A DNA stretch of 64,000 bases from Nannochloropsis salina CCMP1776 (lineage: Eukaryota; Sar; Eustigmatophyceae; Eustigmatales; Monodopsidaceae): NCBI GenBank assembly GCA_004565275.1, contig SDOX01000019.1, forward strand, positions 54,361 through 118,360. The letters run 5' to 3'. The translations under genes and the position numbers were made by a program. The notes beneath the pieces are model-generated. The model saw only the letters and a list, made by a program, of their open reading frames with translations, ran no database searches and was not told where the DNA came from. Each line of letters opens with the position of its first letter. Position 1 is the first letter of the stretch. Positions 12,197 to 57,952 of this stretch are shown here, one piece after another.

Positions 12197-12920
12197 CTTC
12201 CAGTCAGTCGTGAAGACGTCACCCTGTATTAGCCTTTCCGTGCGTGTGCATCTACACGTACAATAATAATCGATTCTTCGATAGAAATTCTAGTCGAATG
12301 TCCTCTCCTCGTAAGCCTTTGTATATTATATGTGGATATAATATGTTGCATGTGCCGTTAGCAATTGTCGACACCAGATTGCGGTGTTGAGTGGAAGTAT
12401 TCCCGCTACGTAGGGTACGAAGCAAATAAAGGACACAACACATTTATCAACAAGCCAACTCATAATAAGCAGCACAGCGACCAAGAAAAAAGGAGCCAGG
12501 AAAGGCTTGCACGGCAAGGGCAGGTCCGGGGCAGGAGGTCAAAAAGGTAGTTTACGTGTATGTGTCCGAAAAATGCGAATATATACTTTGTGTGGAAAAC
12601 CGCTCCTGGCCACCCACTCGCCCGTGTCCTTCCCATTGCCCTTGCAACACCACCTTTCAGGATGGATACCCAAGTACGAAGGTGTTGTGGCGTGATACAC
12701 GTATGTCTCTATGCACATTTCGTATGGGAGAGAGGCAGAGCGTCCCCGTGGCTGTGTTTTTTTTTTCCTTAGACATCCTGCTTGTAGCTCGCTGTCGCCC
12801 GGCCCCACTGGAATGGACACGCAAGTGTATCTACCCTGGCACTTTACCCTCCCAGTTGCCCTTGTTACGGCGTCCTTCTAACCGACCATCAACCATTTTG
12901 ATAACCCACACAAGTTCAGG
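12197..12920. other. Divergent intergenic region
   Basis: The region separates the starts of the EVE gene and the plastid L15 gene and probably holds both promoters. Short open frames on both strands have no conserved features. Confidence 0.55.
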
Positions 12921-17800: not shown

Positions 17801-20800
17801 ATCACTTGTAGACTTTATCCGCTCTTGCGTGACATGTGCCAAAGCGGCTTTGGCCGCTATGTCGGAAGCGACACGTTTGGTTTCTTCGAGACCTTCAATA
17901 AGTTCCACATCCTCTGTAATATCCCCCTGTGCCATTGCAAGCTTGGACAAGATTATGTCCTCTAACTCCTTCATCTTTATCTTAAATCCATTCTGTTGTT
18001 CGACGAATTGGTCGCTCAGCTCAGCCAGATCACGCCGTTCTTTTTGCACCACCAACGTTAAAAGCTGATCCTCCAGGCCCTTTTCTGTTACTGTAAAATT
18101 CACTAAAGTCGTTTCAGCTTGGATTTCGGGGGGGAAGTGAGGATTTGACATCTTCGTGTGTAGATACAAGCGGAAATCGGGATGCCATTCAACGTCGATA
18201 TCTCCTACTTTGAGAAATTGTTTTTTGCCCTTTTTGATTCCCGCACGCCGGATGACAGGTGCTAGCACTGCATCTATCGTTTCACCCATGTTCTCTATTA
18301 AGAGGGACCATCCATTCTCTAATGCGGCTCGAAGTTTTTCCAGTAGGAGCTTTTGGCCCAAGCGTACAACTTGAAGGTTGCGACCTCTTTCCTTCTCCCG
18401 AATCCACTTAATGCCTTGAAGCTGTGGGTCGATCAGCAACGGCCAACGAACTGAGCTTGTAAGTATCACTCCATTCTCCGCGCTGACCGCATCGGCAGGC
18501 AAGCCTTCAGTATTCCAAGCCGCTATTTGTGCTTCCGTGACCAGTAGCTGCACAGGTGTCTTTGTTGGTGGAGCGTGGACTTGATTTCCGTCATTTTCAT
18601 TCCCTATATTGCAGGTGACGGGAGCAAAGGACAAAGGTACAGTCCCTACCGCCGTTTGAAGCTCTTTGACCAAAAATGGTACAAAATGTTGGTAAAGTAG
18701 CTCATCCCGATAAGGTTTTGTAAAGGGTCCTAGATAAGAAATAAAGGCGGCACTGAGCAGTACATCTCCGATAAGCAAGTCTTTATCCTCTGTCATTTGC
18801 TGAATTCGGGCTGTCCATCGATCATTTTCAGATGATAAGGCATGCGTCAAACGTTGAGCCAAATTTAATTTTTGCTCTCCCTTGGCCACAGAATCAAGGG
18901 CTTCCTGTTTCTCCCTGTTCGCCAAGGTATACTCCGTGTTAAGAGTATCAAGTTTTTCTTGTAGTTCGGCTACTTTCGTAAGGACTTGTGCCAGCCTGCT
19001 ATTGGCCGCAGCTAATTGATCATCAGCTTGCTTGAGGGCAAGGCGCTTGGGCTCAACCGTAACAACAATATCGTAGTACTTGACGATGTTAATTACAAAC
19101 GAACACAATCCAGCTGCGGCAGAGTTTTTGGACATTATTATTTCGCTGGTAAAGTGCTCCATTGCCAGATATTTACGGACTTCTTTCCAATTGATTGCAG
19201 GTACCTTACTGTTGTCCACATTTACCTTCATTTCTTTTAGCATGTCAATGTATTCCTGAATATTGCCCAGCAGAGCTTTCTTGCAAGCATCCCAGGACGT
19301 GTCCTTGACTTTTCCCGTCTTTACATTGACCGAAATGTGTGGATGTATACCAGCCAGCAAAATCATGGTGGCAGCAAAAACATCATCTACCCCTGCGGGG
19401 GGCTTAGCCATCGTCTTGCATTCTGCTAGATCCTTCTTGTTGAGTGTATCCAATGCCGCCATTGCACTCACTACTGCAGGCTCAGCCCTGGCAAGGTCCA
19501 TCTCTGTGTCTTTCTGTTTAGCAGCCACCTGGAGTTGGATTTTCGTAACTTCTTCTTTCTCTTCTCGGGCCTTTTCAGTCTCAATCTCGACTACAGCTTT
19601 CTCGCGTGCCACTGACTCGGCAATGCTTTCCGCAACAGATTTCTTCTTCTCAGCTTTCTCAAGTTTTATTTTCAAATCTTCCTCGATTTTTGTTACTGCC
19701 TCTGCCGTTTCATCTAGTTTCGTTAGCCCATTTGCAAGTCGCTTTATATCATTGTCTGATTCTGCGCGCTTTTGCTTGAGGATCAATCCAAATAATTTGA
19801 GCAACTCCAAATATGATTTAGGCGTCGTGTATACGAATCGACGCTCAAGTCGTAGAAATTTTTTCGCCACTTCATTTACCACAAGAAAGCTGTACGGCAA
19901 AAAACGCTCTATCACCCCTCGAAACGCTCTCGCGGCACCTACATTGCCTGTCACTCTCATGCTCGATGCTGGAGTCCCTAGATCAGATTTCGTCGAGGTC
20001 ACTGCGTCTCCGTTTCCTCCTAAATCGATTTGTGCCAGATAATTTCTCCCCACGCTGTACAGAGCTTCCTTTGGCCAAGCGTGGAACCAGTTGATGACAG
20101 TACAATTGACCAGTGCTGGAAATTTCCGCGCGCGAGTCCGTAATGTATCGCCAACTGGAGAAAACGCCAAAACCACATGCAAGTATTTGCGGACCCTCCC
20201 AATAAAGAATTTCCAGCAGGTCCTTTTATTAGTTGCGACTCCTGCAGCTTTAGCTTTGGGTGCTATCGAGCTGCTTATAGACTCCTGCTCCTCGGTAGTA
20301 AAGAGGTCAGGGATGTGACCGGAGGCCAATAAGTCATTCACGTATACCAGGAAGTGCTCATTGGTTATCTGATTGTCAGCTAAAAGGAACACGACCCCTT
20401 CCTCTCGCAATCCCGCCTTTTGGTACGCAGCTTTGAGATCTTCCTTAAAATCTGTAACCCCATACGTAGCCGATATGACGATTTGTTTCACTGAGTAGCC
20501 GCACACGTGAGCTGCTAATCGAGCTAAGGATTGTTTACCGCTCCCTCCAACACCGATAAGCAGTGCATGGCCACCCTCATTCAAGATGATGCGAGATATC
20601 CGCGTAACATGCTTGAGCGCATCATCGAAGAGGACCAGGTCCATAGCAGGATTACTCTCGTTGTATTCCTTCAATGTCTCCTCTAATGTATATGAAAGCC
20701 TATCCAGGGACCCCGCTTGGTCATAAGATCTACTTTGGGTGGTTTCTGTGAAATGACAAAAGACTAAGGGGGCAGGGTTTTCCGCAGTGTAATACTTAGA

Positions 20801-23800
20801 CAAGTTGTAGGTGGGAAAAAGCCTTTTGGCTTGTGCCTGTGCCAAGCTGTGATATTTGTGAAGATCCTCGTGGCTGGAGAGTCTGTCGCCATAAACCCGT
20901 TCTGATTCATGAAGCCACAATTGTACAAACTTCTCAGCTGTTTTAAGCTGCGCCGGTTGGGCAACTAGCAAGCCTTGGAAGACGTTGGAAAGGTGCCGAA
21001 TGTTGAATTCGTAGTGAAAATTTTTAGCCGTCTTGCGAAATGCATTTGCCACCTGCTGATGCAGTCCGTACGCTGCTTTGATTATGTTGCTACCCTGCGC
21101 CTTGATATCAGAGTCAAAATACTGCAAATGACCGTCCAAAAAGGTTTGATAAATGGTGAGCAGGGAAGTGGGCCCGGGCAATCCGACAGCAAAAGTAGAA
21201 AACCACCGCTGAAGGCGTGGGTTCACATGAAATGAGCCTGCTGTTGGATTCAAACAAGCCACCACTTGGGTCTTTAGGATCTGTTTTTGTTGCAGCTTGC
21301 TCATGTCGTACACGTGTCCATATTCCACATGTTGACGCAACAACGCAATGGCACTCTGCGTGTTGTAGGGATCCACCTCCGGAAGATTTAGATCATCCAT
21401 GAAATAAATGAGACGGGCGTTTCCTGGTGGGCCGTACTGTGCGCCAACTTTTTTCTCCAAAGGAAGGCTTAGATTGTTGTAGAGAGTGGCCGCTGTGGTG
21501 TAGAAATTCAAGTTGACTGTCTCGGACTGGACCAAAGAGGGATCCTGGTTGGCTAATAAATCATTCATGAGCTGGGTCTTTCCCGTTCCTGCCGCCCCCG
21601 CAAGCATGACTGGACGTTGCATTCTAATCAACGACAGCATCCATGAGCTTAAAGAGCACGTCTCGGGTGTTGGAACGGTGATTTGCGACATAAGCACGGC
21701 ACGTGAGTCGTAAGATAAACTATAGAAATAGGGGGACTTGGTCCAAGGCTCCAACGTATGGCCATCAGGATCCAACCAGTAGTCAAACACCGTGTCACGA
21801 GAAGGAAACTTGATTTTGCGCCATTCTGACTTCCACCAATCGCTGAAGAGCTTCCTGTAGTCTACACCATCGTCTCCTACTGTGAGAGAAGACCCAAAGG
21901 CCCAAATACAGCAATACACGAATGCAGCCTCACAATACTCTGGAGGTGCGGCTGCCGCAGCACAGACACTGCCGCGGGTTGTAGCTGGACCCTCCCCTGT
22001 ATAAATCGTCGCCATATGCTGAGGCCCAAGGTATCCATCCAGCATGTACAGGAGCGTTTGAATTAAGTTGACATCCACCATGGGAAGTACAGGCTTAGCG
22101 TTGAATTTGAGCCAACATAAGCTTTTCTCACAGTATTCGTCGAACAATCCCCTCAAGACGTTTTGTGCGCTGATGCAGGCCTCCGGACTGCAACCCCAGG
22201 TCTCCCGCATTCTTTCCTCGAATGTTCTTGTCAACCAGCAATGAATCAAAGAGCGCCATTGAGAACCGTCGTCTGACGAGATGTACAGAATACCCGCGCG
22301 CGAGACTGTTGCCGGTGTGGCATATTTGAGGTCTCGAATTTCGAAGATCATGCGCATATGTGACTTCAGTGGGATGCGCTCGTTGGAGGCAAGCGTGAGC
22401 ATGCGGTTGTCATCCATAACAGAATTCATGGACTCAATCCAATTTGCGTCCAAGTCTCCGTCTAAAAGGATCCATTTTGAATTGTCGTTCGGGATCTGAC
22501 CCAACTCGCGCATTACTTTTGAGAGAAGTCCGTCCTTCCATTCCCTCGTTGCCATGCTGATGTAGCCATACAATTCCTCAGTGCTCACTGCCTTGGGATT
22601 AATATCGACCACCTTCGTAATACTGTTGCGCAATTTGCGTGCCTGGACCAATGTTTTCCAACAGGAAGATTTCCCCGCTCCGGGAGGGCCCATGATAAAA
22701 ATGCAGTGGCGAATGGCTAGCAGTTCTTCGAGCTGCACCACCTTAAGCTTGAAATTCTCGTCAGGCCAAAGATGCAGTGCACTGCAAGCTTTGTGCACCG
22801 CATTCTCCAAATCCATGTCCACTTTTCGCGGCGGGTCGACGTTAGGAAACAAGTCATTGAGTAATCCATTGAACACGACCTGATCCTCACGCGCGATTTT
22901 GGGAATATTGAAATCCCGTAAGGCGCGCATTAACAAGGCACTTTCATCGATATCAGGTTCTTGCCGTTTGAATGCGCCTGCTACCACCAACACTGACTTG
23001 ACAGCTCGAAGCCCCCAATCGTAATGTGCTTGTTTCGAGAGCAATTCTCGCAGGAGGGAGTAGAGCCCGTAGAATTTCGAAGCCAGGACTTTGGCTGTGA
23101 CAAAGCCTTCTGCCATGAGCATGTTCTCGCATATGAGAACCAAATCTGGCACCATTACAGTCATAGGACGGAAAAGAGCTTTTAGCCCCTCTGGGAGCTC
23201 GGAACGCCCTAGGTATCCGGGATTCATAGTAATGAAGGCGCCGCAAGTCGGATCAAGTCTGACCTCATCACCTTCAATCATAATTCTGGAAGTGTCTGCT
23301 TTGATACCATCACAGATAGACTTAAACTGAACAGAGCAAACAGAAAGAACCTCTGGAACTAGACGATTGAATTCATCAAAACATCCCCATGCACCTGAAG
23401 ATGCTAAGCCTTTGAATATGTTACCGAGCCCCATGTAGTCCATCTCAGGGGAGCAATTAAACACATAGCAACATTTCGCTAAAGCATTGGCCAAATCCTT
23501 TGTCGTCTCTGTCTTACCGGTGCCTGCGGGGCCCGCAGGAGCGCAACCCATCTTAAGGTTTAGTGCCTGAGTGGCAGTGACATAAATACGATCCGTCAGG
23601 GCTGTGATTACAAGTCGAGGACCGTTGCCAAGATATTCGTAGTCGTACGGAAGAACTGCATCGCAAATTGCTACCTCCGCACGCTCGTTGTGCACCTCGC
23701 CTCGTAAATGCCGATCTCGCGTTTGGAAAGACGCGTGGGCAGGTGGTTGACGGTATTTGTGTTTGAGTTGGGCCTGCCATTTAAAAGAAAAAACGTCGCT

Positions 23801-26800
23801 GATCTGCTCACGACACAGCATTTCTACGATGTCCCGGGAGTGGGCATCCATTGTGATGCATACCATCACCCTTTGACGGTCCTCTTTGCTCAGGTCCGAT
23901 GACTGGGTCAATCGAATTAAATCAGAGAGTTGCGCGACCTGCCTTTGATATTGTATCGTCAACGCTTTGGGATCTTCCCCGGTACGCATGCGTTCGAACG
24001 CCTCCTCTACTTCATGCACGTAATTTACGGCCAAGCTGAGTAGCACAATCTGAGCTGGATCTGATGGCTTTCCTGTTCGAGGATTCTTGTGCATTAACCA
24101 ATCTATACGTGGCATTTCTTGGTACCGGCGAAGAGATTTAGTGAATTTTTGAAAAAGTGTGGTCTTCATGCTTTCGAGTATGGTCTGCAAGTACACCTCT
24201 ACTTTGCCTTGTAAAGGCACAGGCTCGACGAATTCCACTTCCTCGACTCCCACATCGGACACAAATTTCGTGACCAGAGGTCGGGGAGGCTCATCTGATA
24301 AGATCTCTAGGCCTGCTTCTCTTTCTGCCAGCACCAACGTCTTTGTTGAAAGATAGATTTTGGGCGTATGTACCAGTATCCTGTGCGGTGTCGATCCGTT
24401 CGATAAGATGTCCAGTAAATCAGCCTCGCTTACAAAATAGAAGCGTGGGAACTGTCGTCTGCGGCCTTCGAGGAATTCTTTCAAAGATTTTTGGCAAAGC
24501 TCAAGACGCTGCACGATCCTTTCCAAGGAAGCGGAGAGTCCTTCTGCTGTACATGATGACATCACATTTTTCCGAGCCCACGTCTTTTGCAGCGTTTCGC
24601 GCACGTCTAAATCAATCCCCGCGAATCGGAATGCATCTTCGGGCAGCTCCTGTTTGACCTCCTCCGAACCGATGAACAACGGCTCTAGGTATAACCATGT
24701 GCGTTGAATGTCTTGAAAATAGTTGATGGCCTCATTCATTGTGCCCAAAATAACCTGCCAGGCATCTATTTGACTTTCAAAGTGTGCTTTGTACCGCGAG
24801 TTACTCATACTTTGTACAACCAGCTGGTCATTTTCCAGACCCTCGAAATCTTCCTCCGAGATCTTGAGAAGAGGAACTTGGGTATCTTTGTATGGCTCCA
24901 TTTCCCAGGTGATGGATTCCCAACGTGCTTCCAAATTTTCAAGTTGGACCTCCATTTTCTCTTCTTTTGTAGCCTGATCACACATCTCCTCAATGTCCCC
25001 GGCGAATTGCAACAGGTTCAAGGATATAATGTCTCCCAAAGTCAAGTTTGAATTATAATGGGGAATCAAATGTTGCAACCTTTGACTGGCTTCGACCTCA
25101 AACTCTCTATTATCTTCTCCTTGAACAATACCTGAGTCATCGAGGGTGCCTTTCGAAGAATGAACACTGTTGCTCTCATCAGCATTCTCATCATTCGAGG
25201 TACCATTCGCTCCTACAGCTGTCGGAGCACCAGACGCGCCATCAATCTGTCCATCGATGATGTCCTTCCGTTCGCTACATCCACTATTACTCAGTGAAGA
25301 AGCTGCTTCGTCACTTGTAGGCATCAAATCCACCTCTGGCTCCGTTGTACCCGCGACCACACCCTCTTCGACTGCTGTTAAAGATGTCTCGACGGTCGTA
25401 GCTTCACTTTTGGGGGGATGAGGTGTTGAAGGCGTGTGAGCCATTGTGTCCATCGTCTGAATGGCTGAGGTCGTTAGTATCGCGGAGGAAATTGATTGAT
25501 TTTGTTCCCGCGAAGGTCCCAATATCTTGTGAATGAGGACGTCCCAATGGCGGGGCTGCATTTCTTTAGCCCGAAGGCTGCGGATAAGTGGCAGAGTGCT
25601 CATAAATTCTTTGCACATCCCGTCAGTTTTTTGGTAGGCATCAGACCAACGCGTGCATCGATGCAAAGATTTCAAAGACTTGACATGCGATTTCATCTCA
25701 TCCTCAAATACATCGGCGTCCCAACCTGCCCATAGCTGATTATGGGCAAAGGAGAGTGATGTCTGCATGCCTTCGATCACTGCCCACAGTTTTTTTACCT
25801 CCTCCAGCTCGATTCTCACGGTCTCAATCATATCTGCTGATTTTTTAATGACATCATCAGAAAATCCAAAAACCGTACACAAATGTCGAGTCTTTTCCAG
25901 TTCTTGCTTCTCGTCAAGCTGTCTTCGCTCCGCTTCCCGGATTTGATCCCGAGCTGCCTTAGTTTTCGTCGAGAAAGTCCAAAAATTCATGGCATGGAAT
26001 GCCTTCACTTTGTCTTCAATTTCCTGCTCAAAATGCTCCACGCCTTCTTGTATCTTAAGCGACCACATCTTATTGAAAGGGGCGATAGCAGCTACAGTCA
26101 TGGGTGCCTGGCGCTGTGTCTCCTGCCACAAATTTGAAGCGTTTTCCAGGGAAGCGACCAAATTATCAAGGCGATCAATCTTCAGACTCTTACGTTTTGA
26201 GTAATTCAAAGTGGCCCTGCATGTGTCAATGCGAAGGTCCAGCTCGGAGCGCCGCAAGTCCACCGCTTTCAAATGTTCCTTGATCCGAATCAGGGGTTCC
26301 ACATCATACTGACCATTGAAATAGGTTGAGCGCAGGCCTGTGAGAGCCTTATTACAAAAATCTTTCAGCTCCCCAATGGATTCTTTGACATGTTGGATTA
26401 AGCTGTGTCCCGTCAATTCATTAGTAAGAGAGGTTCCCCCCTTTGGAAGCAAAGAAGTCAAATTGTCAAGTCTTTCGTCCCCCTCTTGAACTACTTTCCA
26501 CATCGTGAACGGCGAGCCTCGGATGGGGCCGGCCACCCCTTGGAAAGTACCCAGAAAATCAACGTGAACAATGTATTGGCCAGTACGAGGCACGACGAAA
26601 ATGACCTTATAAGTACCATCCTCCAGGTCCACGACCTTCACTGGTAAGGAATGATCGCTTTTTCCCCGCCGGCTCTGACCGATGTCAGCTTCATAGACGC
26701 CGACAGCGAATTCATCCATGCCGTTTTGTCGATTAGCACCTGAGGCGTCCCTGGCCTGGATATAAAAGGGGGCAGCAAGCCCGTCGATGACATTGCCGGA

Positions 26801-28503
26801 GAGAAGCCCCGGACCGAAGGCCACTGTTTGAAGGGCGCTGGAAACGGGGAAGTAAAAGAAGGACAAAAAGGTGTTGGTGAATGATTTGCTACCAAGAGCG
26901 ACACGTACTTCCGTGGCGACAGGTCCGTGCTTGTCGCAAGCCGGTGTGCTGAAGGTGAGTGTGGAATCGTCGTTTATAAGGCCCGGCACATCGATAGATC
27001 CTTCGACAGAAGTAAGCCGGACTGTGGCCGAGGGGCGAGAATCCAGCCCGCCGTGAGTAAGAAAACGCATACCATTTACCGTGCATAACGTATTGCCGGT
27101 CAAAGGCCCTCTGACCGGGCAGATACTTTCGATTGAATAGGGCGGACCTACGATGCCCATGACCCGGCAAATGAACACCTCGCCAAACCAATGAGTAGCC
27201 CAGCCTCCGAAGAACATTAGCTGTCCATTGTTTGGATCGTACACGATTTGGGTGTCCGCTCGAGCTTCGGGAATTGCACCCACGACGGGTGGACGAACCC
27301 AAGTCTGACTACCAACCTCATAGACAAGTAGCTCGCTGCTATATGTGAACTGAGGGTTTGCGGGATGACTAGCGCTAGCTGTCGCCAGAGACAAGGATGG
27401 ATTCGATGGCAGAGTGGTAGTTGTGCTCAAACTTCCCTCTGTAGCGTTGAGCGACTGCCCGGTGTTGCCCCCCCAGACGAATACTTTGAATTGAGGTACG
27501 GCTTCTACTGCTACCGCTGCGTGATTCCACCGTGCAGGCCCCCACCGCTCTGGACCGCTGGCCGTTTCAATGAAGGTCCATTTGAGTAGTTTTGTATCGA
27601 AGATATGCACATCGTCGAGTTGCGTCGTGGCGTTTGATCCACCGGCCAATACAAGGTAATCTCCCACTGCTACCAGGCTGTGTCCAGATCGGGCTTCTGG
27701 TATATTAGAATCTGAAACGAGAGAGACGCTATCGGCAGGTATATCTTCAGAGGCTGATTCTACCTTCTGAGGGGACCGAGAGGTGTTCATTCCTGTTTTG
27801 CCTGTACTGCATGGATGAAGTAGCTTCCATTCGAACGTTACAATATTCAGCATATGAAGATCGTTGAAATCGTGACGGGAAAAGCCCTCACCACCATATC
27901 CACCGAATATGTAAAGATTTTTCCCGATCAGCGCTGCTGCATGTGCACCTCGTGGACAAGGGGTACTTGAACGACTAATTTCGCCGGCAAGGCAGTTCTC
28001 CCTATTTATGCTCGGACATGGCTGTGACCAATTGTCTTTTGCTGTGTCAAGCACCCAAATATCATTTAAGCGCTGCATGCTACTTCGATAACCCCCAAAA
28101 ATTAATATTTTTGTCTCATCAATGACTGTGGCAGTGTGTCTCCACCGAGGCTCGGGAGTCGATGCCAGGAGCGAGGGGTCACCCTTGATCTGAAAAGGAG
28201 GTGATGTATTTCCGGAGACTTGAACATGTGTCCAATAGAAGGCCTCAGGATTGGACATATCGAGCTTGTACAGCTCATTATTTGGACCAGGGGGTGTTCG
28301 GGCGTCGATGCCTCCAAATAAATAGACCATTCCACTCTTGACTATCGTAAGAGAATGGCCAGACCTCTTTGTTGGTAGGTCACCAATGCAACGCGGCTGT
28401 GACCATTCCACTTCCGCGGGTCGCTGCTGCTCGGAAATAAATAGAAAATGTTTGAGACGAATAATTTCAAATGTGTATTTGGAAAGCAAATCGGACGTAC
28501 CAT
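14879..28503 (-). CDS. ODA11: Outer-arm axonemal dynein heavy chain, alpha type (kelch/IPT/filamin N-terminus)
   Basis: This is the motor subunit of the flagellar outer dynein arm. The protein is about 4516 residues. It starts with kelch repeats (RSGHSLTIV, YLFGG, RWRHTATV; residues about 15-425), then an IPT/TIG-like segment and a filamin-type repeat (about 430-650). That tail architecture is known from the Chlamydomonas alpha heavy chain. P-loops are GPAGTGKT (AAA1, about 1630), GPPGAGKS (AAA2, about 1914), GAAGTGKT (AAA3, about 2277) and GVGGSGKQ (AAA4, about 2625). AAA1 Walker B is CFDEFNR. A coiled-coil stalk (about 2840-3210) and the C-terminal domain (KWVLTGTALL) follow. Ser/Thr/Glu-rich inserts lie near residues 980-1110 and in the AAA5/AAA6 region. 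The proposed start is an exon containing only the ATG at 28501-28503, then a 74-base intron (28427-28500, ATG|GTACGT to GAGCAG|C). An alternative in-frame ATG at 28573 would read through it. The remaining 13.5 kb has no intron. Confidence 0.93.
28427..28500 (-). other. Probable first intron of the dynein gene
   Basis: On the minus strand GTACGT directly follows an ATG, and a pyrimidine-rich end precedes GAGCAG. The intron is 74 bases. Removing it joins ATG in frame to the codons just upstream of the first kelch repeat. Confidence 0.55.
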
Positions 28504-28956
28504 GGCTGTTGTGGAATGGTGCCGGAAGCAGAAATCCTGAAGACAACCTGAAATCCCTACTTGCGGGGCACAAATTTTTTGGATAAGTGGTTTATTAAAA
28601 TTTGGGATATTTTGTCCAGATCGTTTCTGTCACGCAATTGAAATGAATTGCTTAATTAAGAAGAAAATCATTCAATATTGCTTGCGTGTGGAACAGAGTG
28701 GCTCCAAAAAGTGGAAAAAAAAAGAACAATATATGGGCCATCTCGCCCTTCCGATTTTCCTTTCGCGCATTGGTGGTGTATGGATGCTGGTTGACTGCGA
28801 GTTATCACTTAAATCCACTTGCAAACACCATTTATGCATCCAACTGTAGAAAATAGATTTCAGAGAGCCCATTGGTCATTTTTCAATATCCAGTAGTCGC
28901 TTTCTCTGACAAAAGTCTTTTTCCTTTTCCTCCATAGGGCCTGAATTTCGTTCGTC
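28504..28956. other. Divergent intergenic region
   Basis: The region holds the presumed promoters of the dynein (minus) and TM-NodB-like (plus) genes and is AT-rich. A pyrimidine tract ending TCCATAG at about 28938 could be a 5'-UTR acceptor for the plus gene. Confidence 0.5.
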
Positions 28957-32062: not shown

Positions 32063-35000
32063 ATGGCGGACGAAACCCAGCTTATGCCGTCTCAAAGACG
32101 AGGGTGGCTCCGAAATGTGTTCGCGCCCGTCACTCTCGTGACATCTTTGGTCGCAGTGGCTGTCGCGGTCTACTTCGTCCTAGGCTCGAAGTCTCTGATC
32201 TATCGCCGTCCCGGGTCCTCATCAAGCTTGGAATCTGGTAGGCTTGGGCCATCGGGATGCAGAGGATAACATCTTAGCGTGAATCGTGTGCTCGGGGGGA
32301 TGAGACCGTCCTTTACGGGGGCCATGCACGGGGCGACACGTTTGCTTGGACAAGTTTCCTCCTGGACTCCTACTTGACACCCCCTCTGTCCCTCCTTGAT
32401 ACCCTCACAGGGAAAACTTCCATGCAATGTAAAGTATACCAGGACCCAGCCGACCCGACGTCGACGATCAACATGCCTAGTAAGGAAGTGTTTGCCAGCA
32501 ATCTCACGCAATTCCCGAGGGGTTTTGCATGGGGCGCCGCCACGAGTGCCTACCAGATCGAAGGGGCCTGGGACGAAGACGGGCGAGGGCTATCGATTTG
32601 GGACACATTCAGTCATACCAAGGTACGCATGGACGAGACAAGACAGACTAGGGCGGGGAAAGTGGGCTGGCAAAGCCTTATTTTTCGGTAGTTGCTGCCT
32701 CTCGGCTTGTCGCTGATGGTGCGCCCGTGTCATGTCTTGTTCCCCTCAATTTCAGGGGAAAGTCGAGAACAACGAGAACGGGGACGTGGCGTGCGACCAC
32801 TACCACCTGTATAAAGGTACGTCTGTTCCGGTTCGGTGCTGGGGAAATACTTTGAAATCAAATCAGGCGACGTCCTAAACCAAGACTCCGCATTTTGGGC
32901 CCTCAGAGGACGTGGCCATGATGAAGGCACTAGGAATCACCAACTACCGCTTCTCCATCTCTTGGCCCCGGATTCTACCCAGCGGTACTGGAAATGTGAA
33001 TTTTAAGGTATTTGCCATGAGGGGTGGAGCCCTCGGCTGCATTTTCTTCCTCGGTCTATCACTCTACATAGAGACCGCGCTCGATCTCGGCACTGACAAA
33101 AAAGCGGCCTCCATGTGCCTGCGTTCACCACGCCTGCCGACCGCATGTGTTGCGTCTCACTCTGGTTCTTTTCCCGCCTCCTCTGCCTCGCAGGGTCTGG
33201 AATTTTACAGCGACCTCGTTGACGAGCTGCTAGCGAACGGCATTGAACCCTACGCGACGCTGTACCACTGGGACCTACCTCAAGCCCTTCAAGACAAGCA
33301 CGACGGCTGGTACTCCCCGGTCACGAGTGATGCCTTCGCTGAGTACGCGGACGTCGTCTTTGACGCTCTGGGTGAGGGGCGCAGGGAGGGCAAGGGAGTG
33401 GGAGGAACGGGTTCATGTCTGGTTGTCGTCCACGTGTACTCCCTCCCGTCTAAATCTCGCTTCTCTTGGACAGGAGATCGTGTTAAATATTGGATTACCC
33501 TTAATGAGCCTTGGTGCTCGGCATTATTGGGGTATGGCATTGGGGTACATGCTCCTGGAATCAAGGACATCAAGTCAGGTAGAGACCCTCCCTTCCTACC
33601 TTCCTTCCCCCCTCCCCCCTTTCCCCCCTCGCCCTTTTTTCGTTCTGATGCTTTAGATGTGTCTGTCAGTGAAGGTGTGGGTTGCTTCTCTACAGCATCG
33701 GACGTGAGTCTTTTTTGTCTTCCATCCCGTGGAGGACGCTCCCTGGCCTCGGTACTCCTATCCCTCCTTCCTTCTCACCCTCTCCTTTTCCTCCATCCCC
33801 TCCTTCTTCCTTCCTCACCCTCTCCTTTTCCTCCATCATCTAGGCGCCTACTTGGCGGGTCACCACCTCCTCCTCGCTCACTCCAAAGCGGTCAAACTGT
33901 ACCGAGAGAAATACCAGGTCCTGCAGGGGGGGAAGATTGGCATCACCATCAACAGCGACTTCAAGCAGGTGAGAAAAGAGACGAGAGGCTCAGACGAGGA
34001 AAGGTCCAAAGGTTGGACGTTAGCCACGGTTAAATAACAGGCAGGACAACAAAGAAGGGGAAAAGGGAGAAATCCAGCGAGGGCGCACTCCTGGCACGCG
34101 CCGAGTGACCCGCACAGGCCGGGAGGGTGCGCCTTCCAGCAGGTGCACCTGGGAATCTATTCAATCTCCTTCCCGCCCTCCCTCACCCGCCCCCTTTCTG
34201 TCATGCGACCTACAGTATTATTGCGACAACACTTTGGACAAGGCGGCGGCAGAGCGGTCGCAGATTTTCGTGATGGGCTGGTTCGCCGACCCGGTCTTCC
34301 TGGGCGACTACCCGGAGGAAATGCGCAAGACGGTAGGGAAGAGATAGGGGGAAAAGGGAGGGACAAGGAGCGAGGGAGAATAAAAGAGGGGAATGTCTGG
34401 ACGCGACGACGCCCTGCCATGTCTGTGTATGCCTGGCAATGCTTACTTTCCTCCCCCATGCCCTTATTTACCCTGTTCCTCCCTTTGCTCACCCTCTCTG
34501 TGCTCTTTTTCCTTGCCGCAAGTGCGGGGATCGCTTGCCGTCTTTCACGGAGGAAGAGAAGGTGGATCTGAAGGGCTCGTTGGATTTCCTGGGGCTCAAT
34601 CACTATACTACGGCCTTGGTGGCCTCCCCCCTCTTCCGGACGAACGGTGGGAACTACTACACCGACATGGGCACGATGGATTCCTCCGACAAGGTGGGTG
34701 GGTGCCTCAGGGGTGTTTTCGTGGCGCTCGTTTCCTGCCTTTTCCTGCCCACTTTCTCCTTGTGGACGTGGTGGAGGGTGCGTGATGCTTGTGTCTAGAA
34801 TAAGAGCTGTCGGTGGATGGCCGGGGGCGCGACCATGGCGTCCACCCAGGCAGCCCGGGAACTGTGCCGGAAGATTTGACGAGGAATTTTCCTGACTTTT
34901 TCCCATGTCTTTTCCCTTTATTTCTCTCCTCTGCGCCGTTCAGTCTTGGCCTGTGGGGGAGTCTGGGTGGTTGAAAGATGTCCCCTGGGGGTTGCGGAAG

Positions 35001-43068: not shown

Positions 43069-45761
43069 CTATGTGGACTCGGGCTCGCTTCCATCGCTGT
43101 CACCCACCGATTCTATCAATCTTTGGTGCTTCGGCGACACGTTCGAGATCCCATCGCCGCCAATCAACCCTTCTTTTCTCACCTTCCTCCGCTCCCGCCA
43201 GGCCAGTAACCGTCTCTTCAACGGCCACCCAACCGGCAGGCCCTCCACGACCGCCCACGCCCCGTTCTCGATGTCCTCTTGAACCAGGGAGTAGGAAAAT
43301 GCCAAGTAAATCACACCCACTACGGTGGTCACCACATACACCCACCAGGGCTGTCCTGCCCCGATCCGGAGCACGACCAAGTAGATGTTGATGGCGAGGA
43401 CCCCGAAAGCGAGCACCCAGATCGTGATCGTGAGGGGGAGGGAGGACACGTGCTCGCCCATGATCACGGAGGAGGAGGTGAAATGGAGCACAGGCAGGAG
43501 GGAGAAGGATAGAAGGACGGAGTTGAACACATTGATCGCTTCCTGGAACCGGTCGGAGAGGTTTTGGTTGTTCTCGGTCAATATCGCCACGACCAGGCCC
43601 GGACCGATGGCCACGAATCGGGTGAACGTCACTCGGGCCCAGAGGGGGATCTGCAAATCCAAAAAGCCTTCCATCACGTATTGACCTGCGTAAGTACCTG
43701 TCATGGTGCTCGCTTGCCCTGCGGCCAATAAACCCACCGCCCAGATGTATTTCGCGGATTTCCCCAGGGCTTCGGCCAATGCGTCATGCGCACCCGCCAG
43801 GCCAATCAACTGGCAGTCACAGACACCTTCCTCGGTCCGACTCAAGCAGGCCAAAGGCCCTCCCGGGGCGGTGGCACAACCGTGGTCGAAGAAATGGTAG
43901 GCAAAGACGGAGACCACCGCCAGATTGATCACGAAGGAGACGGTCAAGGCTATAGCTGAGTCGATGGCAAAGTACTTGTTCGCTTCTTTGACGTGGGCGG
44001 GCCGGCGCCGGTCAACTTTTCGAGAGAGGACGAGGGCAGAATGGAGGTAGATGTTGTGAGGCATGATGACGGCACCTGAAAGAGGAAGGGAGGAAGGGAG
44101 GGAGATAGGAAGGGAAAGGGGGAGGGAGGGAGGGAGGGCGAGAGGAGGGTCAGGCGCGCATCCGTTGGGAGCACACGAATAAAGAAAGGGAGAAAGGGGG
44201 GAAATGAAAAGACAGAAAAGAGAAGGGAGAGAGGGAAGAAAGGGTGTGGGGGCAGAAGGGGAGGAGGGGGAGGGCGAAGAGGAAGAAAGAAAGAGGCAAA
44301 TCTCTAAAGAGTATCCCCCCCTCCCTTCCTTCCTTCCTCCTTTCCTCTTTCCATTCCAACCTCCCCAAATTCCATTCCAACCGCCGCGAGAACCACTATC
44401 ACTAGGCTCTATGATCCTATTGTCTCGCATCCCTCACCGTCACTCTCCACCCTCCCTCCTTACCGATCAGTCCCACCGCCGACAAGACTGCGTAGGGCCG
44501 TATCTGAGGCACGAAGCCTTCCGCGATATCCCTCGAGGGGGGGGGGCTCTTTCCAAAATTGATGAAAAAGCACACGGTCATGATCGCCACCAAGAGCACG
44601 AAGACACTTTCCAGTTTTCGGACCCCGAAATAGTGGATGCCAAGGAAAGTGAAGGTGTCGATGAAAGTGATGAGGCACCCGAGCCACAGGGGGAAGCCGA
44701 AAAGGATCTGAAAGGCGATCGCACTCCCGACAATCTCTTGGAGGTCGCAGCCGACGATGGCCAGCTCTATTAGTATCCAAAGCGTCATCGACGTGGCCCG
44801 GTTGTACTGCTCCTATTGACAGATGGGAAATCACGCACAGGAAACAAATCAAGGCCGTAGACTCGTCTCTTTTTTGAGTATAATAACACTGTGCAGTTTC
44901 ATTTTTTGATATGCGCATGATAGTGCGATTGATATACGCGGGAAGACACACATGTCTTGAACCCTGCGAGTAGAGCCTTCGAATCCAAATGTGTCTTTCC
45001 CTTGCCATAATTCCATTCTTACCTTACAGACCCGCGCCAAGTTTTTGCCTGTCACCACGCCTAGACGTACAGCCATACATTGCAAAGCAAACCCCATGAA
45101 GGTGGCCAATGCCAGCATCCACAGCAAGTCATACCCTGTAGGGGGAGGATCCGTAAAGAAAATGAGGGCGCAGAGAGACAGGACCTACATGGTCACGAAC
45201 AGCTCACAAAGTAGTTAAGTTGATGTAAACAGCTTATTGAAGGAAGATGAATTAAAACAGCGGTGAGATTGGGGAAAGGCCGCTAGAAGCCAGTTGCTCC
45301 TCAAAACGGCCGTACGACGAACCTGTATACGCTCCAACTTGCAGATCGGCCTCCAAATTTCCGGGGTCTAAATAAGCTATACACATTAGGAATCCAGGCC
45401 CGGTGTATGACAACAAAGTACGAAAGCTAAAGGCTGGTGGCTTTCTTTCCGGCGCCTCTCCTTCTTCCTGAAATTCGTGAACTACGTCCACCTCACTGTC
45501 GGGGTCCCCGCCTTCAAAAGCATAAAGAAAGGACAAAATTCCCGCCGTTGGCGGCTTTTCGTGGTCGTGTCCGGGCCGTGGGTGGGTATGCGTCTGGCTG
45601 TACTCTGTATCGTCGGCATCTAGCTCTTGTAATGACCGCATGGCCTCAGTGGAAGAGGGATGGGCTGTAGACGCAGCCCCGGCATTGGGGATGGATATCC
45701 CAGCTGAAGTGGGCGGAACAAGAGCCGTGTGTACTGCATGCTCCTCGTCAATAGAAGGCAT
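43069..45761 (-). CDS. NRAMP: NRAMP-family divalent metal transporter, 4 exons
   Basis: NRAMP proteins import Mn2+, Fe2+ and related ions with protons. Exons in coding order are 45761-45323, 45135-45023, 44812-44464 and 44075-43069. All have GT/AG junctions and total 1908 bases (635 residues). The helix-1 metal motif DPGN ([12 protein letters not shown]) spans the end of exon 1. Exon 3 has [18 protein letters not shown]. Exon 4 opens with the helix-6 motif [11 protein letters not shown] and contains [19 protein letters not shown], the NRAMP consensus transport motif. Both metal-binding motifs are intact, with the Met in helix 6 that favours transition metals. The long N-terminal tail has a His cluster ([13 protein letters not shown]) that could bind metal. 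Location (plasma membrane, vacuole or plastid) cannot be told. Confidence 0.93.
44081..44140. repeat. (GGGA)n tract before NRAMP exon 4
   Basis: Read on the coding (minus) strand this is a CCCT pyrimidine array just upstream of the exon 4 acceptor. Confidence 0.75.
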
Positions 45762-51672: not shown

Positions 51673-52317
51673 TCACAAGCGGGCCCTGTTCCCTTCACTT
51701 CTGCTTTGTCGTTGATGATGCCAGGCGTCGCCTTGAGAATCCAATAAAACGTGGCATTGCGTCAAATACCGCCCGTCCTTCTTGCGTGTAAACAACACCC
51801 GATAGGACATCGGTATAAAGTTTCCCTGGGGATGGGGTGCGACATCTAAAGGAGGAAACAAGCTTCGGGAGGGAGACTGTTTGTCTCCCTCCCCAGCTCC
51901 ACGTTCCACACGCATTCCTCGCACGAGCAGGAGCAATTCCGTATTTTTCGTGCATGGAGACATGTAATCGATACTCAAAGAACGAACACGCGGCAAAGCG
52001 TGCTGGCTCCTCTCTCCGGCCCACCGAGCGGCTTGGTGATACAAGGCAAGAGCAGCGCGCTCAGCCAAAATTGCGGCGGCCCCACCATGGAGAGAACCAA
52101 AGCTATTGCAAACCTGCGGAATGACTCTGAAAGAAGCCGACGCTTCCAGTGTTAGAGGCATGGACGCTGGAAACGCCAAATAAGGGGAAGCGGCTCCTGC
52201 AGGCTCGTACACGTGGAAATTATCCAGCGCCAGGAGACGGTTTATGTTTACTACGGCACGTGAATGGTGAAAAAGGGTCATGGGAGGGAAGTGAGTGAAT
52301 GTTGTTGCGAAAAACAT
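51673..52317 (-). CDS. Hotdog-fold (PaaI/4HBT-like) thioesterase unit, downstream copy
   Basis: Hotdog thioesterases cleave acyl-CoA or acyl-ACP thioesters. The open frame encodes 214 residues. The active-site region GSLHGGAAAILAERAAL matches the family pattern ..G.lHGG.ia.laD/E. The beta strands LSIDYMSP and MSYRVLFTRKKDGR (shown short) complete the fold. The frame begins at ATG 52317, inside the last 40 bases of the upstream hotdog frame. The two may be one double-hotdog protein, joined by a 38-base GT-AG segment (52357-52320) that keeps frame exactly. If separate, they are adjacent paralogues with overlapping ORFs, which is rare in nuclear genomes. The substrate is unknown. Confidence 0.65.
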   Translation of the reverse strand: MFFATTFTHFPPMTLFHHSRAVVNINRLLALDNFHVYEPAGAASPYLAFPASMPLTLEASASFRVIPQVCNSFGSLHGGAAAILAERAALALYHQAARWAGERSQHALPRVRSLSIDYMSPCTKNTELLLLVRGMRVERGAGEGDKQSPSRSLFPPLDVAPHPQGNFIPMSYRVLFTRKKDGRYLTQCHVLLDSQGDAWHHQRQSRSEGNRARL

Positions 52318-53281
52318 GCCTTGAACGCGCCGAATACCGCCTTCATCCTGTGCGTACCGGCGGATCCTGGTTCCGTTCTCGGCAGGTCGGGTGAAGGTGC
52401 CGTCTCAGGTGGGAAAGAGGAGCTTTTCTGCGTCATTTGGCGCGCGCTAGGTAGAAGGACGGCGGAGGCTATCAGGTGCGTGAGCGGGAACGCCCAGGCA
52501 TGCATGGCCACCGTCCAAGCGGTGCCCATTTTCAAGAACTTGACGTGTCGACCGTGAGCGAGCTGAAGGATAGCAGTGAAGGTCGTGGACGATAACGGAG
52601 GTCAGAAAGTAAGGACACGAAAAAAATCTAACGATACAAACGAGGTGCGTAGCGTACGATATCCAGATATTCCCAAACTCCGTACAAATATGAGCCGAGA
52701 CGTGAGTCTTCTCGCGTCCTTTCCCCCAACTCTGTACGCACCTCTTTACCCGTTGCTACGTCCAGAAGCATCATGTCGGCAAAACCCAATGTCTCCCCTA
52801 CTTTTTTACAATGCGATTGAATCTCCACTTCCGTTCCCACAGGCACCCAGGAGAGCACGGTCGTGTTCAAACTGACGCTTACACCGGGTCGATGCCGTCC
52901 GTCCGCGGACACGAACGCCCACGAGGAGACTTCGTCAAACCATGCCGTGACGGCGCCTGCGTCCAACAAACGATGATTATTATTGTAATTATCACACAGG
53001 TGGGAGGGCACGCGTAGTCGAAGGCGAACTTGTGGCCCGGGTCCTATTTTTAGGGCTTCGACATTTTGAAGCTCTGTGGCGTTGGGTTCGATATCTCTGC
53101 GCAAAAGGACGCCAGAAAAAGCACTTTTCGACACTGCATGCAAAAGCTCAAGCACTTGGCGACTTGTTCGTTCTTGTCGGGTCATTTTTGACCTAGAATC
53201 ATGCGGTGAGATTGTTTTGAGGGACATGTCCGGTCTCTGAGAAGAGCTCGGAATTGGCGGCGATGTGGGCAACCGACGCAC
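52278..53281 (-). CDS. Hotdog-fold thioesterase-like unit, upstream copy, 2 exons
   Basis: Exon 1 is 53281-52742 (donor AAAGAG|GTGCGT) and exon 2 starts at 52562 (acceptor CCTTCAG). The junction is phase 0 and produces LLDVATGKE followed by LAHGRHVKFLKMG, the usual final strand of a PaaI/ACOT13-type hotdog domain. The central helix region is NHRLLDAGAVTAWFDEVSS. The acidic catalytic position (FDE) is kept, but the HGG of the active site reads DAG. The strands VSLNTTVLSWVPVG follow. The N-terminus is basic and Ser/Arg-rich and could be a transit peptide. After the domain, exon 2 runs on as a Ser/Pro-rich tail to a stop at 52278, overlapping the start of the next hotdog frame. See that entry for possible fusion. 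Confidence 0.65.
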
Positions 53282-53839
53282 TAACGGTGAATAAGGCGTG
53301 CCAGATAATTATTTTCAGCTAGATAGCATCGGAAGTCTGCAGCGTACACAAAGAAAAGGCACGAAAAAACGTCCGTGCTCGCGTGCCGGAGCACGAAAAT
53401 TCACCAGGCTTTATTCCGGTCTGTCAAGCCAGTTGAAGTATGAGGAAAATTTGAGGCGGCGGGCATGGAGCGGCGAGAGACATGTCTTAGGAATAACACG
53501 GCTGGCACGACCTGGCCTGCTTCTTACTCCATCGTCCGTACCTGCGTATTTCTGGTTGTCTGAAATATAAGTGGTGGTGCACCTGGCACATTTTGAAGTT
53601 GGAGGCGAGTGTCATGACAAGCAATTGCCATGCGTATAGCCCACTCTACCCCTCCCCCTCCTCATAAAAGGCAAATAGAGTAAGACGGAAAATCTGCCTG
53701 TTGCCATGGAGGGACATTCGAGCCGGTCAAGTATTGAAGAAGTTATTTGAAGTACTGCACCCGAAGGGCGTTCATCAAGACTGACGCTCGCACAGAGCAG
53801 GGCTGAGAATATTCCGTCTGAGATCAGCTCTGCGGTGCT
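53282..53839. other. Divergent intergenic region
   Basis: The region holds the presumed promoters of the hotdog gene (minus) and the sensor-kinase-like gene (plus). Nothing else was recognised. Confidence 0.5.
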
Positions 53840-56800
53840 ATGGCCGTCAAGGCAAAGGAAGGGGAGGCGCTTGCCCACCGAAGCGACGGGAGCTGTCCAG
53901 AGAAAGATATGGTGACGGACGTGGCCAAGAAGAAACGAGGCCGTGGAAAAGAAAGGCAGGTCGGCATGGTAGTGGAGTCTACCCCCCCTCCCCCCCGGAC
54001 CTTGCTGTCTCGATACACCCATGCCTGGAGGAGGATGTACGACCCGGACAGGCGCGAGCGGATACGCGCCCATTTCGGTCAAAGCCTGGGGGACCTGCCG
54101 GGAGATCCCGTGTGCAAGCCTTTTCACTGGTCTTTCCTTTTGACGGCCCTGTGGTCCTCCCTAATTCTGACCGCGGCCGTGGTCGCCAGTGCCCACATTG
54201 TCCTATCCGGGGGGGTCGTCCTCCTCTGGTTCCTCACTCCTGCCTCCACCCTCCTCCTTTGCATCCAAGCCCGGGCCTGCTGGCCCTACACGTTCACCGC
54301 CATCGTCGGCGTGGAACTGACCGCCGTCTGTCTCGGACACGGGCGTATCTCCCGAGACAGCTTGGCCGCCTTCATCATCATCGTGGTGGACCTGCTCAAC
54401 ATCTCCCTGGGCACGCTTCTGCTTCGACCTTTGGTGGCAGGGAGCATCCACATCGTCCGGACGTCCACCTTTGTGCGATACCTGGTGCTCTACGTCCTCC
54501 TCATCACCCCCGCCTTCTCCCTGGTTAACGGGGGTATCATCGTCCTCCTCCCCTCCAACAACATCACCTGGATGGGAGGGCGGCAGCTGGTGGTCGCCTG
54601 GCTCTTGGGTGATTTCTTCGCCACCTATTTTACTGTCTACGCAGTGCTCGTCTTCCGGTACACGATCGCGCAGGCCACCAAGGACACCTACCGATGGAGG
54701 GACCTGGCCGTGTACCTGCAGGCTCGGCTCCGCGCCGGGGGGATCTGGTTGTACTTGCGTGTGGTGGAGTATGCGGGCGTGCTGGTCGTCACCTACATGG
54801 TGGCGCACGCCGTGGCCACCTCCTCCACGTCCCCCAGGGACCACCTGGGGCCTCGGATCGTCTCCCGGTTGATGATCCCCCTGCTCGGCTTCGTCACCTT
54901 CCGTTTCGGCCAGTTCGGCTCCTGCGTGGCCCTGATCGTGGCCGCGGCGGGGATCTTTACCGTCACCTACGGACAGCTGGACAGGGGGGACCGGCTCACG
55001 GACATCTTCTACCAGATCGACCTCCTCCTGGGCCCGATCGTCGTGGTTTTGATCACCTGGAGCATGACCTTTCTGGCCGTGGCGCTGGCGGAGAAGCAGG
55101 ATGGCTTGAGTTTGTTGGAGAAGAGGTACGAGGGAGGAAAGGAGGGCGAGCAAGCACGGGGTAGAGGAACCGGTGACGGGCGCCGGAGGCGTGGGGAACG
55201 GAGGGGAAGAGAAGGGGAGGGGCCAGTAAGGAGACCGCGAACTCTACACTCGATAGAACGACGACAGTAAGCACGTGCTTCCTTTCCCCCTACCCCCCTC
55301 CTACCCCCTTCCTTTTATCAGAAATTTCCAGCTTTTGGTTCAAGGCAGGGAGCTCCAGCAGGCCAAATTGGAGGCGCAGCGGGCCCTCAGCACCAAGACC
55401 GAATTCTTCGCCCGGGTATCCTACGAGTTTCGGACGCCTCTCAACATCATTCTGGTAGGCATGGGGAAGATTTCCGAGGCCAGGATTGGTGTGGTGGAAC
55501 CGTGGGCTGCTCGTAGGGTCCTCTGCATCGACTTAGCTTCTCCCCTCTTGTCGGGCAGGCGCCTGGGCGGTGGGAGAAAGAGGGTGTGGAATGCGCGATC
55601 ACGTCCCTCTTTGCTCACATCGGTCGGTCCTCCCGATTCACTCTTTTCTCTCCTTTCTCCCTGGCTCTCCCCTTTTGTAGGGATTTGCCGAGGAAATTAA
55701 ACGCCAAGACCTGCCCCCCTACGTGCAAGAACGCATCGGTTACATCATTACGAGTGGCGAGAGTCTTCTCAGGTGAGTCGTCCAGTGTCCGACGCATGGG
55801 CGAACAAGCCGGCTGCCCTCCTGGCTTTCAAAAGGGGAGACGGAAAGAATTGGCATAGGAAAGGGTCGGGGGGGAAAGAATGGGTTCCCGCGGGAGGGGC
55901 CTTCGTTGGTCTCTTCTTTCCGAAGGAGGAGGCATTGCGGACCTTGACGCCCTCTCCCCGTGGCGCGTTGCCCCCCCCGCAGGATTGTGGACGACATCCT
56001 CGAGCTGTTCCGCCTCTCTTCCCAACGGCTGCAGATCGACGAATCCCTGGTCGACATCCACGCGTACTTCACCACCATGTGCGACCTCGTCCAAGTCATT
56101 ACCGACAAGAGCCAGCGCCGGCTGGAACGGGTTCAGGATCCCTCGCTCCCACGGTAGGCAGGGGAGGACCAGGGGCCGGGAGGGAGGGAGGGAGGGAGGG
56201 AGGGAGGGAGGGAGGAAGGAGGGTTGAGGTTTGGTTTCGAACGCGCGGGGGGTAAGGGAAGTCACCTGTTTTTCCATGTCTTCCACGCCCTCCCACTCCC
56301 CTCCCACCGCCTCCCCTCGTCTTTCCCCCCTTTCGACCCGCGGTCGCTCCCTCCGTCCTACGCTACGTGTTTCTGGACAAGATTCGCTTCTCCCAGCTGG
56401 TCATGAATTTGTCGAGCAATGCCGCCAAATCGACCGGGACCGGGGGAAGGATTGTTCTACGGCTGCGGCAGGTGAAAGGAAGGGGGAAAAAAGGTGGCAA
56501 AGGCGTCTTAATGAACTCCAGAGAGGCCAGGGAGGCGAGGGGGAGGGAGGAACGGGAAGGGAAAGGGGTCCTAGAGGTGGAGGAGAACGGTGTGCGTGCG
56601 GACAGTCATGGGGGGGCTGGCGGCGGGAAGGTGCCGCGGGAGGAAAGGATCGGAAATGATGCAATGCGTCACAACAAGGGTCCAGGCAATGAGAAAACCA
56701 GCCCTAAGTTAGGGTCCCCCAAGAAGGAGAAGAGGGTGGCTGAGGGCAAGGGGATAGGGAAGAGTGGGAGGCGACGGAGTCATCGTGTGATATGGCTTCG

Positions 56801-57952
56801 TTTAGAAGTGGAGGATGACGGGATCGGGATTCCCAAGAGCACGCAGAACCAGATTTTCAACTGCTTCTACTCCGGTAATCAGCTGTCGGGGGGGGAGAAA
56901 GGCCATGGGTTGGGGCTGGCGATCACCAAGGAGCTGGTGGATCTGATGAAGGGCTCCATCGAGGTCGTGAGTGAGGTGGGGGTGGGCAGCCTGTTCACGG
57001 TGGACCTACCCGTCAAGGTCTTGGAGGAGGAGGAGGTGAAACACAGCGCAGAAAACGGGCGACCCTTGCGGAGGAGACCTCGGGCTAAGCGGGCCGGGTC
57101 GCCGGTGGGGACGACGCAGGGGCTCGAGGACAATGGCCAGGACCCCGCCGGCGTGCGACCTCCTGCCCGTGCCTCGACCCGGTCCCTGGATCCAGCGCGG
57201 GCGACAGATCCTGACAAAGACACTCCACCAGCACTCTCGTCTGCCGCACCCACTTTGCTTGAGGGCGACTTGAGAACCAGCGCGGTGGGAGTTTCCCCTC
57301 TGATGGAGGCGCCTTCTCCTTTCCAACAGCCCCTGCATCGAAACCGACGGTTACATGGTCTGAGGATCATGGCTGTGGAAGACTTGTTGCCCAACCAAAT
57401 GGTCCTGGGGGGAATGCTTCGAGAAGACTCGCATTCGGTTCAATTCGTGGAAACTGCTTTTGGGGCCCTGGAAATGCTTTCACGACATCCAGGTCATTTC
57501 GACGTGGCCCTGCTCGGTATGTCCGGGGTCCGAGAACCGCTTTCTCGGCTTTCTTTGCCTCCACATTTTGGGTTTATGCATGCGTGTCCCTCACCTGCAC
57601 CTCCGTCTACTGCTCTGATTTCCACACGCTCATTTTACCCTTTTTATTTCTTTCCCTTCTATGTGTACTGCTAGATATTGAACTCCCTGATGCGCATGGT
57701 GTCACAGTGTTGACTCGCATACGCTCTCATCCTTCTCCCCGCATTGCGGGCATGCCTGTGGTCGTCGTAACGGCCGTGGCCATGGATGGAGAGCGCAACC
57801 GGTGTTACCGGCACGGCGCCGATGATTTTGTGACTAAACCCATTCGACTTGGAACATTACGCGCCTCTCTGCTTGCATTGTACAAAAGGGGACGCATTAA
57901 GCCAAGAGAGGGGATCAAGGTGGTAGAAGATGGGAAGGAGGACAATGATTGA
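53840..57952 (+). CDS. MASE1-like hybrid sensor histidine-kinase-like protein with Tyr at the phospho-His position
   Basis: Clear exons are 53840-55125, 55322-55454, 55681-55772 and 55983-56153, then an exon ending at 57516 and the last at 57675-57952. Exon 1 holds a basic cytoplasmic head and about eight to ten helices resembling a MASE1 sensor (WLLGDFFATYFTVYAVLVF). The HisKA H-box reads FFARVSYEFRTPLN: Tyr (55422-55424) replaces the phospho-accepting His. The HATPase domain keeps the N box (NLSSNAAKST), G1 (DDGIGIP), F (FNCFYSG) and G2 (GHGLGLAI). A Lys/Gly-rich insert (56472-56757) may be a retained intron (CAG|GTGAAAG). The receiver domain is intact: VED near the start, LLDIELPDAHG, VTA and VTKPI; its phospho-Asp codon is split by the last intron. 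The join between 56153 and about 56340 lacks an AG acceptor and is unresolved. The length is about 1050 residues. Phosphotransfer from its own His looks impossible. Confidence 0.8.
56174..56224 (+). repeat. (GGGA)n tract in sensor-kinase intron
   Basis: The purine array lies just after the donor at 56154. It is the clearest case here of GGGA, rather than CCCT, on the coding strand of an intron. Confidence 0.8.

Follow-up and report, generated by a model that had tools for sequence, protein, structure and literature searches.

What can a membrane-bound hybrid sensor kinase do if a different residue occupies the place of the histidine on which it should phosphorylate itself? This question is raised by a gene in a 64,000-nucleotide stretch of the Nannochloropsis salina CCMP1776 genome (contig SDOX01000019.1; "the window" hereafter means this whole stretch as analysed). 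Its H-box, VSYEFRTPLN, is otherwise canonical and carries tyrosine at the phospho-acceptor position, as does the Caulobacter pseudokinase DivL (PMC4211667). The original prediction had placed this substitution at a TAC codon, which is indeed what is read at 55422-55424. The homology-based model of the gene has the following parts, all on the forward strand:

53840-57952 (+): whole kinase gene, six-exon model based on homology
53840-55125 (+): exon 1, N-terminal region with a MASE1-like multi-pass membrane region (Pfam MASE1 match)
55322-55454 (+): exon 2, linker helix, then the beginning of HisKA with the H-box
55422-55424 (+): TAC, tyrosine at the phospho-acceptor position
55681-55772 (+): exon 3, HisKA continued
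55983-56153 (+): exon 4, last part of HisKA, then the linker joining it to the ATPase domain
56154-56362 (+): intron 4, extent required by homology, GTAGGC donor, ends in CG
56363-57516 (+): exon 5, HATPase_c with its N, G1, F and G2 boxes, followed by the beginning of the receiver
56406-56435 (+): N-box NLSSNAAKST
56473-56785 (+): low-complexity insert, in frame, rich in K, R, E and G, within the ATPase domain
56814-56831 (+): G1 box DDGIGI
56856-56870 (+): F box FNCFY
56901-56918 (+): G2 box GHGLGL
57675-57952 (+): exon 6, remainder of the receiver, carrying its Thr, its Lys and the second part of the split Asp codon, and the TGA stop

HisKA (exons 2-4, E=6.1e-15), HATPase_c (exon 5, E=2e-22) and receiver (exons 5-6, E=1.6e-19) domains were matched in profile searches of separately scanned pieces, and all three lie in one gene if the order of these pieces is set by homology. 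In exon 1, the Pfam scan returned only a weak MASE1 match (E=0.0012; 18.4 bits, under the curated cut-off of 29.8), which nevertheless aligns positions 3-297 of the 299 in the profile; PAS and GAF domains were not matched anywhere in the kinase gene. Exon 2 (55322-55454) translates as NFQLLVQGRELQQAKLEAQRALSTKTEFFARVSYEFRTPLNIIL, and a longer variant of exon 1, ending at 55266, is likewise in frame. The homology-based exons add up to 1,038 codons, with no stop until the final one. Third-position GC amounts to 0.77-0.83 in exons 1, 2 and 4 compared with a GC content of 0.49-0.67 in the introns, while it is lower in exons 3 and 6 (0.57 and 0.52), where this signal is absent. The low-complexity insert in the ATPase domain is about 100 residues long; the HATPase_c profile matches two stretches, the better of which starts after it. 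In the receiver, the Asp codon is split over 57516 and 57675-57676, with Thr at 57770-57772 and Lys at 57836-57838.

Two adjoining frames at 51676-52404 and 52631-53308 (both on the reverse strand) weakly resemble 4HBT thioesterases, with matches that stay below the curated cut-offs; they are divergent from the kinase gene, and similarity between the two was not detected. Further away, the reverse strand encodes a P-type ATPase-like protein (2463-6905, an open frame of 1,481 codons with domain matches), an EVE-domain protein (11132-12289), a dynein heavy chain (14882-28591, 4,570 codons in one open frame) that has a filamin-like repeat and, at its N-terminus, kelch repeats, and an Nramp transporter (43072-44433), and the forward strand a GH1 glycosidase (32879-34030). 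Searching the window by tblastn with the kinase core, the receiver and exon 1 (E up to 0.01) for a second kinase matched only the gene itself.

How intact is the kinase core around the replaced histidine? The tyrosine-box pattern is found at one place in the window and in none of 100 shuffles. Relative to 36 His-type rows, all of them prokaryotic, the window protein keeps 34 of 41 conserved columns, a column being conserved if it is the same in at least 90% of these rows; the long-branched His rows L010, L125, L133 and L141 were left out of this count and DivL-like rows were sampled one in three. The seven changes (L29F, H34Y, S84F, E87S, G89Q, F155S and Q206S, numbered along the 260-residue core query) compare with 0-5 per His-type row and 3-19 in each of the 33 DivL-like rows. 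The conserved glycines of the G1 and G2 boxes, the N-box Asn pair, the G1 Asp and the N-box Lys, which differs in 16 of the 33 DivL-like rows, are all retained, as are Asp, Thr and Lys of the receiver. The original prediction of preserved N, G1 and G2 boxes and receiver Asp thus holds, whereas it was slightly generous for the F box, since the conserved Gln adjoining it is replaced by Ser. Because the conserved nucleotide residues are kept and the acceptor histidine is not, binding of a nucleotide such as ATP by the window protein appears plausible, while phosphorylation of its own chain on histidine at the usual place does not. The changes S84F, E87S and G89Q, located where the second HisKA helix ends, hint that the loss of the histidine is not brand new. 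The seven changed columns, together with the long branch described below, may also fit relaxed constraint, and distance from the prokaryotic rows may explain part of them.

A second anomaly concerns intron 4, which separates the HisKA half from the HATPase half. Introns 1, 2, 3 and 5 are of the GT-AG type as modelled. Intron 4 shares the six letters of its donor, GTAGGC, with intron 2 and has a pyrimidine-rich 3' part, but CG instead of AG stands at the end required by homology (between PSLP and RYVFLDKIRF), and no AG occurs between 56262 and 56379. When GT-AG, GC-AG and AT-AC splice pairs were tried, 46 left the reading frame uninterrupted up to and including the G1 box. Of these, a single one uses the donor at 56154; it skips to 56416 and loses YVFLDKIRFSQLVMNLSS, in which lie a conserved Asp and the first of the N-box Asn residues. 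Hence, none of the pairs tried is a canonical splice from this donor that leaves the kinase domain whole. Also considered, and rejected, was an AT-AC intron at 56138-56361: it maintains the frame, but DPSLPR is lost and the donor is atypical when judged by the minor-class consensus. In-frame splices from other donors, for example 56131 to 56381, were discarded for loss of conserved residues. The end of intron 4 reflects either a wrong sequence, non-canonical splicing or a damaged gene. The original prediction overlooked this anomaly, which raises the probability of the decaying gene that it had listed among its options. A GGGA tandem repeat is found within the same intron at 56178-56223.

How widespread is tyrosine at this position? 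A codon scan for SYE-x-RTPLN in a collection of 84,980 species returned at least 117 stretches, mostly DivL-like genes of Alphaproteobacteria. Among the matches listed, 75 of 80 are alphaproteobacterial, two are assigned to Proteobacteria only, and one each belongs to Bacteroidota (L040) and Gemmatimonadota (L072); the viral_contigs collection held no tyrosine box. A receiver was detected in one of the 117 tyrosine-box frames listed, again L040, by a single-sequence receiver search in which 13 frames run off the end of their locus. Across 296 genomes from the phylum of L040, the tyrosine box occurs in one, the genome chosen for it, and 113 have a histidine box flanked in the same way, so that tyrosine looks rare outside DivL. 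About 1% of sequenced histidine kinases are reported to be substituted at the histidine, with tyrosine among the replacements (PMC5361649).

L040 (1599-3545, reverse strand) encodes a hybrid kinase of Bacteroidota in which PAS, a tyrosine-type HisKA, HATPase_c and two receivers are matched, and shows that tyrosine recurs in hybrid kinases. The Gemmatimonadota kinase, with its tyrosine box at 3996-4022 (reverse strand) of L072, groups with the His-type L122 of its own genome and not with DivL. A 1,201-residue frame in L010 (786-4388, forward strand) combines a tyrosine-type HisKA, in which an ATPase domain of its own was not detected, with a complete His-type kinase behind it, and is perhaps a natural fusion or an artefact. 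In the open-licence literature, none of the matches listed names a tyrosine-substituted algal hybrid kinase.

Where, then, does the gene belong? A tblastn search of plasmid records gave identities of 34-38% for the best 40 of 3,420 matching records; of ten that were fetched, nine have the histidine box and in one no box was found. An H-box was not found in three of 156 loci. Two trees of 66 and 61 rows, the second omitting rows L010, L125, L129, L133 and L141 as well as the acceptor column, place the window gene among kinases of the His type, the majority of which have receivers. Matches of up to 180 residues were excluded from both, and eukaryotic hybrids, the expected nearest kin, are absent from the rows, among which the window gene sits on a long branch (2.29 in the 61-row tree, where end branches have a median of 0.74). 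On the 66-row tree, at least three changes are needed to explain the tyrosine label. No relatives were found with short exact patterns, which reach close relatives only, either by querying viral_contigs with HisKA or, in the non-eukaryote collections genome_contigs and viral_contigs, with the membrane region.

Taken together, we tentatively favour the reading that the window gene encodes a pseudo-hybrid histidine kinase working through a putative partner. The retained ATP-binding residues, the receiver Asp, Thr and Lys, the open reading frame and the precedents of DivL and of chloroplast sensor kinase (CSK) argue for a pseudokinase, whereas intron 4 without an AG acceptor, the branch of 2.29 and the seven changed columns of 41 argue against it. 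The protein would be unable to phosphorylate itself on histidine, and its HisKA helices would dimerise with a histidine-bearing hybrid kinase of the same cell. A signal sensed by the membrane region could then change the activity of this partner. Conceivably, the ATPase domain serves the dimer by phosphorylating the histidine of the partner in trans, and the receiver Asp may gain phosphate from, or lose it to, the partner or a phosphotransfer protein. Such a mode would be like that of DivL or of plant receptor heterodimers, yet identical to neither. Since nucleotide residues and receiver are kept and DivL and CSK provide precedents, the most likely working form of the protein would be a heterodimer subunit.

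Decay of the gene, or a loss of function specific to this strain, is nearly as likely, because intron 4 lacks a normal acceptor; the histidine codon and this acceptor would both have been lost, and the whole protein would no longer be made. Two anomalies, at the acceptor residue and at the end of intron 4, indeed meet in one gene whose four other modelled introns end in AG, the only frame-keeping canonical splice from the GTAGGC donor (56154 to 56416) costs YVFLDKIRFSQLVMNLSS, and the long branch points the same way. On the other hand, the 1,038 codons are free of premature stops and the nucleotide and receiver residues are kept; third-position GC also exceeds intron GC in exons 1, 2 and 4, but this reflects past rather than present constraint. 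An error of sequencing or assembly at the tyrosine codon, intron 4 or both is unlikely, even if each anomaly is limited to one or two bases: the 4,570- and 1,481-codon frames that stay open elsewhere in the window indicate that indel errors, though not necessarily substitutions, are uncommon in this contig, and the further changes at conserved HisKA sites are unlike a single miscalled base.

Descent of the gene from bacterial DivL is very improbable. It would agree with the H-box letters VSYEFRTPLN, which recur in five DivL-like frames (L050, L051, L107, L113 and L116), and with columns H34, L29, S84 and Q206, which are also changed in 33, 29, 28 and 31 of the 33 DivL-like rows, respectively; constraining the window gene to DivL costs 17.4 log units and is not rejected at the 5% level (AU p = 0.079). 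However, all 24 of the DivL-like rows sampled fall into one clade that leaves the window gene out (100/99; 200 of 200 bootstrap trees), the best match is a His-type kinase in all five DivL-bearing genomes searched (in G003 the DivL-like gene is a close second, with 106.6 against 107 bits), and a receiver but no PAS domain was matched in the window gene. The least credible reading is self-phosphorylation on tyrosine, with the phosphate then passed to the protein's own receiver or to another protein. The ATP-binding residues are kept and a tyrosine stands in the acceptor place, and there are two proteins to compare: DivL, which was reportedly first described as a tyrosine kinase, and CSK, a chloroplast sensor with a GAF domain and chloroplast targeting and without a receiver. 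The CSK authors argue from ATP affinity that kinase activity is kept, but also report that autokinase activity was not demonstrable (PMC5054060), and autophosphorylation of wild-type DivL was not observed (PMC4211667). By precedent, the tyrosine-phosphorylating variant suggested in the original prediction is thus unlikely.

If the tyrosine proves conserved and the gene expressed, this would be a eukaryotic membrane hybrid pseudo-histidine kinase in which the ATP-binding and receiver parts are still present, and the DivL-type substitution would have arisen independently once more. If this copy is decaying, it is a case of ordinary gene loss and a caution against inferring function from one residue. 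A bolder and improbable extension of the pseudokinase reading is a fixed division of labour in a eukaryotic sensor dimer, in which the tyrosine subunit lends ATPase and receiver while the partner alone carries the histidine. Phosphate would then flow one way only, and tyrosine would have arisen separately in DivL, in single kinases of Bacteroidota and Gemmatimonadota, in green-algal CSK and in the window gene.

Among known systems, DivL shares with the window gene a tyrosine in place of the HisKA histidine together with HATPase_c. Its loss of the histidine goes with loss of kinase activity, and it senses a phosphorylated regulator and acts on another kinase (PMC4211667), namely CckA, just as the window protein is proposed to act via another kinase. 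The affinity of DivL for an ATP analogue is low (57 uM, a value cited in PMC5054060). It differs in having PAS domains; the window gene instead combines a MASE1-like membrane region with a receiver, and it groups outside the DivL clade in both trees, although placing it with DivL is not rejected (AU p = 0.079). In CSK, too, the histidine is missing (green algae have Tyr or Gln in its place, higher plants Glu), and the Arabidopsis protein with Glu at the acceptor binds ATP with normal affinity (PMC5054060); the window protein differs as a membrane hybrid with a receiver and without a GAF match. L040 resembles the window gene in its tyrosine-type HisKA, HATPase_c and C-terminal receiver, yet it has PAS input and an extra N-terminal receiver match and lies on a separate branch of the tree. 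Kinase heterodimers have been reported for plant ethylene and cytokinin receptors (PMC6963811), for RetS-GacS (PMC12189002) and for ChrS-HrrS, one member of which is a pseudokinase (PMC9491836). Although their input domains differ and the excerpts of these reports make no mention of tyrosine at the acceptor, they provide models for how a defective or regulatory kinase may act within a heterodimer.
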